DNA from: Helicobacter sp. 13S00401-1
Lineage (GTDB): Bacteria > Campylobacterota > Campylobacteria > Campylobacterales > Helicobacteraceae
Assembly (NCBI RefSeq): GCF_002272925.1
Contig: NZ_MLAR01000008.1
Coordinates: 23,536-87,535 of the forward strand
Length of the DNA: 64,000 bases
Reading direction: 5' to 3'
The stretch's first letter is position 1, and each line of letters opens with the position of its first letter. Below the pieces are notes generated by a model. It worked only from the letters and a program-made list of their open reading frames with translations, was not told the DNA's origin and did not search any database. Shown in pieces: positions 1-64,000 of this stretch. The position numbers and the translations under genes are program-made.

Positions 1-564
1 AGGGGTTGGGTAAAGATTAGTAGTGTGCATCAAAGCTAGGGGTACCTTTTTAGATTCTATGATATCAACACACTTAGCTATGGAATCTAAGTCATTCATC
101 CCAGTAGAAACTATCATAGGTTTAGAAAAACTAGCGATGTGTTTTATAAGTGGGTAGTTATTCATCTCGCCACTTCCTATCTTATAGGCACAAACTCCCA
201 TATCTTCTAGTCTATTAGCAGCAGCGCGACTAAAAGGAGTTGAGATAAAGATCATACCCTTAGATTCTACATACTCCTTTAAAGTCCTCTCATCATTAAA
301 ACTTAAAGCGCAAGATTTCATTATCTCATATATGCTTTTATCACTATTACCTGGAACTACTTTAGTGGCTTCTTTGCTCATCTCATCATCTATAACATGA
401 GTTTGATGTTTAAGTACTTCTATGCCTGCTCGCTTAGCGCTATCAACCATAAGTTTTGCTAGCTCTAAGCTTCCATTATGATTAATACCTAGTTCTGCTA
501 TAACTAAGGGCACTACATCCTTGCTTATCTCTCTAGTTTTGTATGGGGTTTTTAGGGTTAGCAT
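1..564 (-). CDS. neuB: N-acetylneuraminate (sialic acid) synthase, partial at window edge
   Basis: I translated this by hand from an ATG at 564; 188 residues are visible and the C-terminal half lies beyond the window edge. The enzyme condenses ManNAc (or a related hexose) with phosphoenolpyruvate to make a nonulosonic acid. Family marks are IAELGINHNG near the start, VLKHQTHVIDDEM, STPFSRAAANRLEDMG, YKIGSGEMNNYPL, and HTTNLYPTP at the very edge. These read like Campylobacter NeuB1, so sialic acid is the likely product, but pseudaminic or legionaminic acid synthases share parts of this pattern. It lies 25 nt downstream of the sialyltransferase gene on the same strand, so the pair probably makes and transfers sialic acid onto surface glycan. 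Confidence 0.88.
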   Translation of the reverse strand, partial: MLTLKTPYKTREISKDVVPLVIAELGINHNGSLELAKLMVDSAKRAGIEVLKHQTHVIDDEMSKEATKVVPGNSDKSIYEIMKSCALSFNDERTLKEYVESKGMIFISTPFSRAAANRLEDMGVCAYKIGSGEMNNYPLIKHIASFSKPMIVSTGMNDLDSIAKCVDIIESKKVPLALMHTTNLYPTP

Positions 565-589
565 GCATATCCTTTTTTTAGTTGCTTTT

Positions 590-1627
590 TTAACTTTTAA
601 ACTTTTTGGCCATAAACTTTGCTAGTTTCTTAAAAGGGCTTTTATCGCTATATCGAAGTTTAAGAAAAAGACCTAGCACTCTTTTTGTAAAGCTACCATA
701 AAGCCCACTTTTAATCTTATAGAATACCTTTTTAAAATGACTATCAATATAACTAGGCCTAGGAACATCTCTTATCCTATTTAAGGGCTTTTTGTAATTT
801 AGACTATCCTTATAATCTTTAAAAGGTTTTATCCTTAAGCTATCTGGCGGAAGTGGTAAGTAGGCATGAAGACTTGAAGTTGGACATATACTATATATCC
901 CACCTCCTTTTAAGTGGTTTGGAATCTCTTTTAGATACTTTGCCTTATAGTCTTTGTTAAACTCTAAAAACTTAGTCTTTTGCTCACACTCTGGCAAGTT
1001 AAAATCTTGATTAAAGTAGTCACAACATAACTTTAAGCCTTCTAAATCTAAATAGCTTGTATGCATAGTTGAAGCATTATTTGAGATCTCTGGGAGATGG
1101 AGGAGAAGATTTTCTGTAGGGGCAAAAGAGTATAACTCTTTACCTTGATATAAGTCTATACCGCCTACATATATATGCTTATAGCCATAGTATATAGCTG
1201 TATTTATCATGCAAATCCCACTAGTAACTCTCTTATTATAAGTAGTGATGTTGTGCTTAGCGTGCTCTAATAAATAAGGCATTTGCTTTATTAAGTCATA
1301 AAAAAGTAAGTAGTCTTTGTTATCTTTTTCAGCCATATAATGTTCTAAGTAGGTATCTTCATAAGGCATACACTTCATAAAGCCTTCTATAATGTACTCA
1401 CGTCTTTTGTTTAGTCTTTCATATATCTCAAGTAATATAGGAGATAGATGCGTAGCTGCAAAAAATACTAAGTCTATCTTTTTACCAAGGCAGTAACGTG
1501 CTTCTAAGAAGAACTGATTAACGCGAAAAACATCATAGTCTTTTGGTAGTAAACTATAATCTATTTGCCTTGTGCTAGCCCCATTACCTAAGATAACAAC
1601 ACTATCACTTTTTCTTTTGTACTCCAA
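590..1627 (-). CDS. GT42-family sialyltransferase (Cst-I/Cst-II type)
   Basis: This 345-residue protein resembles Campylobacter CstI/CstII, which move sialic acid from CMP-Neu5Ac to galactose at the end of LOS. The N-terminus has the nucleotide-sugar motif LGNGASTRQIDYSLLP and FRVNQFF. Mid-protein KRVTSGICM and IYVGGIDLYQ match the family's Arg and Tyr active-site segments, and the His in NASTMHTSYLD is a candidate catalytic base. The length falls between CstII (about 290) and CstI (about 430). The C-terminus is rich in Lys and Arg, fitting membrane association. The start is a TTG with AAAGG six bases upstream; no in-frame ATG lies near. It heads an operon with neuB, and its promoter carries a T14 tract. 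Linkage specificity (2,3 or 2,8) cannot be told from sequence. Confidence 0.85.
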   Translation of the reverse strand: MEYKRKSDSVVILGNGASTRQIDYSLLPKDYDVFRVNQFFLEARYCLGKKIDLVFFAATHLSPILLEIYERLNKRREYIIEGFMKCMPYEDTYLEHYMAEKDNKDYLLFYDLIKQMPYLLEHAKHNITTYNKRVTSGICMINTAIYYGYKHIYVGGIDLYQGKELYSFAPTENLLLHLPEISNNASTMHTSYLDLEGLKLCCDYFNQDFNLPECEQKTKFLEFNKDYKAKYLKEIPNHLKGGGIYSICPTSSLHAYLPLPPDSLRIKPFKDYKDSLNYKKPLNRIRDVPRPSYIDSHFKKVFYKIKSGLYGSFTKRVLGLFLKLRYSDKSPFKKLAKFMAKKFKS

Positions 1628-63186: not shown

Positions 63187-63570
63187 GAGTTCGGGGAAAG
63201 AGTTTATAAAAGTAAGCCGCAAGAGGCTTATTAGAATCTCTTCATATATCCTTGCGCAAGTTGTAAGGTAGCCTAAGATAATCTAGTGTTAAAATTTAGA
63301 TTCTATCTTTTCTCATTTCAACTTCCACATAACTTACTTAGTAGTCATTTATAGTGATAATGTAGATAATAAAAACCACCATAAGCTTTTTACATCAACT
63401 TTTCATAAAAACTAAAACCTTATATGTATAAAAATGTGACTAATTCATCAAGTAAACTTTACATTTGAGTGGTATTTATGTTTAAATAACACTTCTCAGT
63501 CTCATAAGTTAAACTATATTTAACTAAGTCTTGACCATTTTTATCTTACAAAGAAAAGGAACTTCCACTT
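63187..63570. other. Intergenic before the chemoreceptor, no gene seen
   Basis: About 380 AT-rich bases. A short hairpin (TAAGCC, loop GCAAGA, GGCTTA at 63213-63230) followed by TTAGAATCT may end the recN unit. The chemoreceptor ATG has AAAAGGA 10 bases upstream; no clear promoter is seen. Confidence 0.45.
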
Positions 63571-64000
63571 ATGAAATTAAAACTTATATCTTTCATGTCT
63601 TTTATATTTATAATCTTCATAGTCGTTTTTATACTCTTCTTCTACAACAACAAGTATCAAATAAATCTTTTTCAAGATGGTTTAACTAAAGCCTATTATG
63701 AAAACGCAGATAAGACATTAAAAACCACTATAGATTCTATGGCAGATTCTCTAGGTAGTCTAGTAAAAGGTATGGATGAAAAAGATCAATTAGCCCTCAT
63801 ATCTAAAGCCATCAATGGCGTCAATGATATCAGACTTGGGGGGGGGGGGGGGGGGGGGGAAGGGTATTATTTTGGACAAAAAGATCCAAACCCACTAATA
63901 TATCAAAGACAACCCGACTTGGGTGGAAAAAACCAAAATTATTTAAAAGCGAAAAATGGCCATTAAAAATAAAAAAGTTAAACAAAAAAGGTTTTAAGGG
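63571..64000 (+). CDS. Methyl-accepting chemotaxis receptor, N-terminal part; disturbed by a G22 run
   Basis: The N-terminus has a membrane helix (about 5-27) and a sensing-domain start typical of Campylobacterota receptors (YENADKTLKTTIDSMADSLG, MDEKDQLALISKAINGVND). At 63838-63859 a run of 22 G replaces the usual short acidic stretch. The following residues GYYFGQKDPNPLIYQ and PDLGGKNQNYLKAKNGH still resemble a sCache-type domain, but a stop at 63964 and a needed one-base shift to PLKIKKLNKKGFKG suggest errors after the run. The rest of the gene lies beyond the window. Confidence 0.7.

Follow-up and report, generated by a model that had tools for sequence, protein, structure and literature searches.

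To our knowledge, the Neisseriaceae and the Pasteurellaceae represent the two known origins of DNA uptake sequences, and Helicobacter pylori, the best known member of its group, is a model for transformation without sequence preference. Campylobacter jejuni belongs to a related lineage. HIP1 of cyanobacteria is a highly iterated palindromic word for which we know of no link to a competence system. In the Neisseriaceae, a single dialect has between 943 and 5,918 copies per genome according to excerpts of a survey, the top count being 5,918 in 2.4 Mb (PMC3630211, excerpts), and excerpts of another source describe H. pylori, unlike C. jejuni, as indifferent in self-DNA discrimination (PMC10046745, excerpts). 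Here, a stretch of 64,000 nucleotides of Helicobacter sp. 13S00401-1 (G000:C57:23536-87535, hereafter the window) was analysed for the word AGATTCT/AGAATCT, which an original prediction, read by eye, had put forward as a candidate uptake or architecture word. This word is real, family-wide, dialect-forming and near-palindromic, and its extended form TAGAATCTA, together with its dialects, seems likely from the sequence comparisons below to be a DNA uptake sequence that works with a competence pseudopilus.

Counting in the window gave 68 copies of AGATTCT and 40 of AGAATCT, 108 in all (about 105 had been predicted), compared with 16.3 expected from an order-1 model and a mean of 15.5 (standard deviation 4.1, maximum 26) in 100 dinucleotide-preserving shuffles, in agreement with the predicted expectation of about 15. 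The additional copies of GGAATCT that had been announced were also found, GGAATCT/AGATTCC adding 35, and both examples cited in the prediction were located, positions 58774-58782 reading AAGATTCTA and an AGAATCT beginning at 59836. TAGAATCTA itself occurs 43 times, the shuffles giving a mean of 1.7 and a maximum of 5. When the window's 174 GAATC sites were aligned, the extended consensus that the prediction had called for emerged as T(A/G)GAATCT(A), which is nearly palindromic and sharply defined at its core, GAWTC (W, A or T). The excess of the heptamer was therefore upheld while its length was not, the true word being longer and present genome-wide. The flanks of the aligned sites are nearly flat past about four bases, indicating that the copies are not parts of a longer repeat. 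The centre of the word is A or T only in the window, TAGACTCTA and TAGAGTCTA having 0 copies each where 1.4 are expected. When single-base changes of the core were counted in a 297-kb sample of the same genome, most of them, the centre swap excepted, were near or below expectation (AAAATCT 183 vs 173, AGCATCT 144 vs 129), whereas the outer base accepts G (GGAATCT 202 vs 19 expected).

Coding constraints could in principle produce such an excess, as a by-product of codon pairs or of the dipeptides Asp-Ser and Glu-Ser, and the placement of the word was studied in 456,610 bases of the genome with mechanically called genes and 1,018 RGAATCT sites (R, A or G). The 866 genic sites are spread unevenly over all six frame/orientation classes (309, 243, 146, 63, 61 and 44), two of which hold 552 of them, as a codon effect would have it. 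However, in 200 synonymous-codon shuffles within the 55 mechanically called window genes, AGAWTCT was reduced to about a fifth of its observed count (87 vs 18.4 +/- 4.0, maximum 29) and TAGAWTCTA fell from 30 to 4.4 +/- 2.0 (maximum 10). Sites also lie between genes, at 2.60 per kb of intergenic compared with 2.16 per kb of genic sequence. Shuffled counts far below those observed and sites in every class are the opposite of what the prediction had named as its refutation, and its statement that more than a codon-pair effect is involved was borne out. Conservation was assessed over 205,755 bases aligned at 83.5% identity with G001, the only other sampled genome of the genus. AGAWTCT was identical in G001 at 182 of 313 sites, whereas among control heptamers matched in composition the figure was 2,947 of 8,272 (p = 2.6e-15), and 215 of the 313 were still RGAATCT on either strand; for GGAATCT sites alone, 70 of 149 were identical. 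Hexamers encoding the same dipeptides with other codons were less conserved (226/495 and 169/405 vs 220/374 and 302/487). Codon shuffles and site placement thus led to the rejection of a codon or dipeptide artefact, whose probability we regard as negligible.

Since the core contains GANTC, the prediction had pointed to CcrM-like methylases. A general GANTC effect was rejected as the cause, given that GAATC outside the masked word is about as frequent as expected in the window (31 vs 30, 39 or 69 for orders 3, 2 and 1) and that GASTC (S, C or G) is strongly avoided; the C or G centre is not enriched in most sampled genera either, with a small exception in G048. The avoidance of GACTC/GAGTC is an observation in its own right, with 4 copies in the window where about 48-60 are expected, 46 vs 220 in the 297 kb and 7 vs 55 in G001; it is weaker or absent in most other genera sampled and looks like restriction avoidance within the genus. 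Two further features of the window composition were noted, namely a depletion of GATC (248 vs 469 expected, both strands counted) and C/G homopolymer runs as in phase-variable genes (15 overlapping counts of CCCCCCCC, both strands, vs 0.1 expected).

A more specific role for methylation would be an uptake mark as in C. jejuni, in which GAWTC is methylated and only modified DNA is imported. The near-palindromic core would be readable by a methylase, and the genome does carry a CcrM-like methyltransferase gene (L279:1393-2517, G000:C47:60771-61892; best solved structure CcrM, 6pbd, E 7.6e-91). Among the 90 genomes of the family, however, strong CcrM-like matches (E <= 1e-79, 19 genomes) do not track the word, being present in 12 of the 66 genomes classed as enriched for this comparison and in 7 of the 24 classed as not enriched (Fisher p = 0.26); at E <= 1e-20, matches including a shorter kind were found in 48 of 90. 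No strong CcrM-like match accompanies the word in G001, G022, G078 and G080, and a protein of G006, a genome with no excess of the word, is 72% identical to a 280-aa CcrM-related methylase of contig C15. Consequently, GANTC/CcrM methylation was rejected as the cause, and the methylase part of the prediction did not hold, the word of this genome being GAWTC only and not GANTC. A methylation-gated mark would need a methylase other than the CcrM-like kind, which is the kind compared with the word, and we consider this explanation improbable.

Over the whole genome, a draft of 1,835,235 bases in 59 contigs, TAGAATCTA occurs 1,239 times compared with 134 for the control, the same pattern read backwards, which is about nine-fold; the 610 and 629 copies by strand and the intergenic density given above agree with the predicted presence on both strands and between genes. 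The same count was performed in 149 related genomes, comprising 90 genomes in 13 genera (g1 to g13) of the same family and 59 of other families of the same order. The family was treated as Helicobacteraceae on the basis of the names on matching protein records, the secretin of the genome being 79% identical to a protein filed under Helicobacter sp. 11S02629-2; by inference from such names, G007 (g7, with a 731-aa secretin) is likely Wolinella. Genus g6, which includes G006, is likely the H. pylori lineage. The excess of TAGAATCTA is strong in g1, g3, g5, g10, g11 and g13, moderate in g4, g8 and g12 and small in g2, g7 and g9, with a top count of 8,587 copies in 2.7 Mb (G027). No excess was found in the 12 sampled genomes of g6, an absence which the indifference of H. 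pylori mentioned above fits (PMC10046745, excerpts). Of the 59 genomes of other families, two exceed 150 copies (G090, 234 vs 25; G093, 153 vs 20), and a few more surpass the control three-fold at no more than 64 copies. In 13 Campylobacterota-type loci (223 kb) the heptamer was not clearly enriched, L055 (8 vs 0) and L057 (6 vs 2 reversed) perhaps excepted, and no match was obtained when one gene of the window was used to search plasmids.

De novo word counts in 20- to 100-kb samples of the relatives revealed dialects that share one GAWTC core and differ in genus-specific flanks: T(A/G)GAATCTA in the genome studied here, TAGATTCTATA in G027, CTAGAATCTA in G043, GCAGATTCTA in G086, TGGAATC in G048 (g4) and AAGAATCG in G007 (g7). 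Two dialect words are backed by whole-genome counts. TGGAATCT, which differs from TAGAATCTA by one letter, is enriched in all six g9 genomes (4.1- to 20.4-fold) and in the sole g7 genome (10.5-fold), both genera being weak for TAGAATCTA, and shows no enrichment in g6 (0.1 to 1.3); AAGAATCG is enriched in g7 (911 vs 101) and in g8, where three of five genomes show it, with a modest excess in some g4 genomes. The word or a dialect is therefore enriched in most sampled genera of the family, which answers the comparison with related Helicobacter that had been proposed. The de novo search found no strong word in 60 kb of g2 (G002), and little was seen in g9 (G062, 60 kb) and g12 (G012, 40 kb) before the whole-genome count of TGGAATCT. 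Outside the genus of the window, counts of certain core variants are modestly above expectation, namely AAAATCT in G043 (92 vs 55), AGAAACT in G086 (15 vs 6), and AGAATAT and AGACTCT in G048 (43 vs 24 and 17 vs 6). In three loci of G007 (L155-L157), a second over-represented word, CCAAAGAG/CAAAGAGG, was observed beside the AAGAATCG dialect (CAAAGAG 126 vs 39, 60 kb).

The distribution of the word was then set beside that of the uptake machinery. A secretin (PF00263) was matched in 77 of the 90 family genomes, the 13 others being all 12 of g6 and G075 (g4). A genome was counted as enriched when TAGAATCTA or TGGAATCT reached at least three times its reversed control, which applies to 73 of the 77 genomes with a secretin match and to 1 of the 13 without (Fisher p about 1e-10, shared ancestry ignored); with TAGAATCTA alone, the figures are 65 of 77 and 1 of 13. 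PF00263 also matches Tad-type secretins, the second match in the genome sitting in a Tad-like operon, and GspE- and GspF-like components were examined for this reason in 27 genomes. A GspF-like platform was found in all 15 genomes of other genera and in none of the 12 of g6; a GspE-like motor was matched at E <= 1.8e-61 in the same 15, and g6 gave weak matches only (E >= 1.6e-13), which are likely VirB11-like. At the 14 secretin loci compared, a GspE-like gene adjoins the secretin in 11 and a GspF-like gene in 9; in the genome studied here and in two g5 genomes, the secretin is set apart from these genes. The type IV secretion gene TrbI is present in 45 of the 90 genomes, including all 12 of g6, and is not found in the genome of the window.

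The surroundings of TrbI were used to compare mobile and resident DNA. In 20 stretches (365 kb, 18 enriched genomes) 112 copies of the word were counted where genome averages predict 240.4, 18 of the 20 being below expectation, and the reversed control was above it (16 vs 7.3); 20 comparison stretches (339 kb, 11 enriched genomes) had 386 copies vs 367.4, the control giving 7 vs 8.2. This depletion shows that the word builds up in resident DNA, and alone it is not proof of uptake. Two TrbI regions, in G042 and G056 (L299 and L300), have 0 TAGAATCTA in 20 and 19.1 kb, where 11.6 and 6.4 are expected, and are likely recently acquired islands.

Close pairs of RGAATCT (gap of at most 14 bases) number 55 in the 456,610 bases, with 34 expected at random, and 21 of them are wholly intergenic, though intergenic DNA makes up only about 12% of the sequence. 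Eighteen pairs, every one of them inverted, follow a gene end by no more than 80 bases, and four inverted pairs of the window fold as hairpins (-8.4 to -10.7 kcal/mol; Table 1). These inverted pairs were likened to the inverted-repeat uptake words behind genes reported in PMC2346458 and PMC5217627 (excerpts).

The pairs, the genus-specific flanks and the link to the secretin bear on the idea of a genome word comparable to HIP1, that is, a near-palindrome kept or made inside the cell by repair, methylation or a chromosome-organising protein and having no role in uptake. Such a word is compatible with the two-fold symmetric, nearly all-or-none GAWTC core, as a dimeric enzyme would read it, with the lack of strand polarity of AGAATCT and with the TrbI-region depletion, which fits any native word. 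On the other hand, the word tracks the secretin within the family and has no excess in the genus without pseudopilus, its flank dialects differ by genus, and its inverted pairs lie behind genes, like those of known uptake words; consequently, we hold a HIP1-like word to be unlikely, though less so than the methylation-gated mark. Strand polarity was evaluated with GC skew as a stand-in for replication direction. The orientation of AGAATCT is unbiased relative to local GC skew in all eight genomes tested (259 vs 266 in that of the window), so that an architecture word with strand polarity, as the prediction would have allowed, was not supported; architecture roles other than polarity remain a rival. 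The same result led to the rejection of a Chi-like polarity of AGAATCT. A recombination signal for AddAB would also suit a frequent word in a window that encodes a RecB/AddA-like helicase (45729-48761; best NCBIfam match 598.9 bits, below the cut-off of 650), and GGAATCT does lean to the G-rich strand (132 to 87 in this genome, 30 to 8 in G080), for which base make-up may be the reason. A near-palindromic and very dense word nevertheless fits such a signal poorly, and a Chi-like function appears highly improbable.

Taken together, a function in DNA uptake is backed by the density of the word, its codon independence, its dialects, its conservation, the inverted pairs behind genes, the co-occurrence with secretin, GspE and GspF, the uptake-related genes of the genome itself and the depletion around TrbI. 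Thus, the uptake idea of the original prediction was supported by density, dialects, inverted pairs, co-occurrence with the secretin and pseudopilus and lack of excess in g6, whereas its methylase and polarity parts were not. Recognition of the word on incoming DNA would fall to a pseudopilus made of the products of likely secretin, motor, platform and prepilin genes, prepilin-like proteins being a guess for the reader. A cell with the word in its genome would favour the import of DNA that carries the same word, and recombination of the imported DNA would spread and maintain its copies by molecular drive; the lineage in which a type IV secretion gene is present and the pseudopilus absent would have been left with neither the reader nor the pressure that keeps the word. 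If so, the symmetric core suggests a reader unlike the known readers of oriented words.

Several observations weigh against an uptake function. The word is near-palindromic, unlike the oriented words of Neisseria and the Pasteurellaceae, and copies in decay do not form a clear halo around it, because core mismatches, the centre A/T swap aside, are mostly not enriched. The second word, TGGAATCT, entered the enrichment criterion when some of the data were already known. Four secretin-positive genomes, all of g2 (G002, G035, G046 and G066), are not enriched, a fifth g2 genome barely passes (G057, 3.0), and G075 is enriched with no secretin match. The joint absence of word and pseudopilus is essentially that of one lineage, g6, and hence of few independent events, so that the independent support is much thinner than the p value suggests. 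Finally, two of the 20 TrbI stretches are not depleted, and the depletion of the others fits any slowly accumulating native word.

The genome appears, from its gene content, to encode DNA uptake machinery, which is listed in Table 1 with the copies and hairpins of the window. The prepilin of contig C15 scored 24.3 bits against PF07963, over the cut-off, in one search and 21.1, just under it, in another. Three small proteins of contig C47 were read as prepilins from the look of their N-termini and one weak PF07963 match (E = 0.3), and had no Pfam family at E <= 0.05. A Tad/Flp-like pilus operon, whose secretin is distinct from the competence one, was noted at L151 (G000:C15:45001-65000), a reading which rests on the sequences of its open reading frames (ORFs) and the PF00263 match.

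Table 1. Uptake-related genes of the genome, and inverted pairs and copies of TAGAATCTA in the window (window coordinates unless a contig or locus is named).
Feature	Position	Strand	Remarks
ComEA-like helix-hairpin-helix gene	C57:514-780		upstream of window, same contig
Secretin	C57:907-2655		beside ComEA-like gene, upstream of window
ComEC	C57:7020-8366	-	upstream of window, same contig
PilB-like motor	C2, L041:3637-5139
PilC-like platform and prepilin	C15 (L258)
PilT-like ATPase beside prepilin-like genes	C47, L260:17339-19579
Inverted pair TAGAATCTA / TAGATTCTA, hairpin	1898..1918		just behind 3' end of - strand ORF 1920-4751; RNA fold -8.4 kcal/mol
Inverted pair TTGGAATCT / AGATTCCAA, hairpin	12511..12532		about 34 bases behind ORF 12053-12478; -10.7 kcal/mol
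Inverted pair TAGAATCT / AGATTCTA, hairpin	22723..22748		intergenic; -10.3 kcal/mol
Inverted pair TAGATTCTA / TAGAATCTA, hairpin	41071..41096		about 13 bases behind ORF 40288-41061; -9.5 kcal/mol
TAGAATCTA copy	51..59	-
TAGAATCTA copy	261..269	-
TAGAATCTA copy	1898..1906	+
TAGAATCTA copy	1910..1918	-
TAGAATCTA copy	3020..3028	-
TAGAATCTA copy	5769..5777	-
TAGAATCTA copy	9764..9772	-
TAGAATCTA copy	11783..11791	+
TAGAATCTA copy	13431..13439	+
TAGAATCTA copy	18947..18955	-
TAGAATCTA copy	19793..19801	+
TAGAATCTA copy	22155..22163	-
TAGAATCTA copy	22726..22734	+
TAGAATCTA copy	24641..24649	-
TAGAATCTA copy	24875..24883	-
TAGAATCTA copy	26109..26117	-
TAGAATCTA copy	26257..26265	+
TAGAATCTA copy	26406..26414	+
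TAGAATCTA copy	28570..28578	-
TAGAATCTA copy	30090..30098	-
TAGAATCTA copy	36103..36111	+
TAGAATCTA copy	36794..36802	+
TAGAATCTA copy	37845..37853	+
TAGAATCTA copy	38814..38822	-
TAGAATCTA copy	41074..41082	-
TAGAATCTA copy	41085..41093	+
TAGAATCTA copy	41454..41462	-
TAGAATCTA copy	42402..42410	-
TAGAATCTA copy	44466..44474	-
TAGAATCTA copy	47317..47325	-
TAGAATCTA copy	50563..50571	-
TAGAATCTA copy	51458..51466	+
TAGAATCTA copy	52154..52162	-
TAGAATCTA copy	52181..52189	+
TAGAATCTA copy	53477..53485	-
TAGAATCTA copy	56324..56332	-
TAGAATCTA copy	60117..60125	-
TAGAATCTA copy	60522..60530	-
TAGAATCTA copy	60894..60902	-
TAGAATCTA copy	61748..61756	+
TAGAATCTA copy	62579..62587	+
TAGAATCTA copy	63297..63305	-
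TAGAATCTA copy	63731..63739	-

The secretin of G001 is borne by its contig C59 (72,850 bases). In the open-licence papers searched, TAGAATCTA, TAGATTCTA, AGATTCTA and TAGAATCT were not found as words, and, among the matches listed, there was no report of an uptake sequence in Helicobacter, Campylobacterota or Wolinella and none of an uptake word in work on competence of non-pylori Helicobacter, in agreement with the statement of the prediction that no such word was known in Helicobacter. We would give about an even chance to the broader proposal that most of the Helicobacter family outside g6 possesses its own near-palindromic uptake code with genus dialects, with an evolutionary origin separate from that of the Neisseria and Pasteurellaceae words and, in one genome, a density above that of the densest word listed in the 2013 Neisseriaceae survey, and that g6 lost this code with the pseudopilus and came to rely on type IV secretion, which would explain the indiscriminate DNA uptake by H. 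pylori. If true, uptake sequences would have arisen independently a third time, it would become predictable between which Helicobacter species DNA can pass, and the origin of such codes, their shifts of dialect and their loss upon replacement of the uptake machine could be tested directly.

Compared with the known systems, the word resembles HIP1 in being palindromic and highly iterated, and differs from it in sequence. With the methylated RAATTY mark of C. jejuni it would share a type II/IV-pilus-like uptake machinery and self-DNA discrimination (PMC10046745, excerpts); the mark there is a methylated hexamer, while here a longer over-represented word with dialects is found, unassociated with a CcrM-like methylase. 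By-eye comparison gave no homology of the GAWTC word of this genome to the Neisseria or Pasteurellaceae words as they appear in excerpts of PMC2346458 and PMC3630211. The uptake signal sequences of the Pasteurellaceae, unrelated in sequence and oriented, are likewise short words that occur about as densely and take inverted-repeat forms behind genes (PMC2346458, PMC5217627, excerpts). The DNA uptake sequences of the Neisseriaceae are unrelated as well, the word here being near-palindromic with a putative uptake role and a reader that is only guessed, as opposed to ComP there. As in the Neisseriaceae, however, there are hundreds to thousands of copies and dialects around a fixed core, CTG there and GAWTC here, and the 8,587 copies in the 2.7 Mb of G027 stand against 5,918 in 2.4 Mb (PMC3630211, excerpts), a rough comparison as the Neisseriaceae word is longer.

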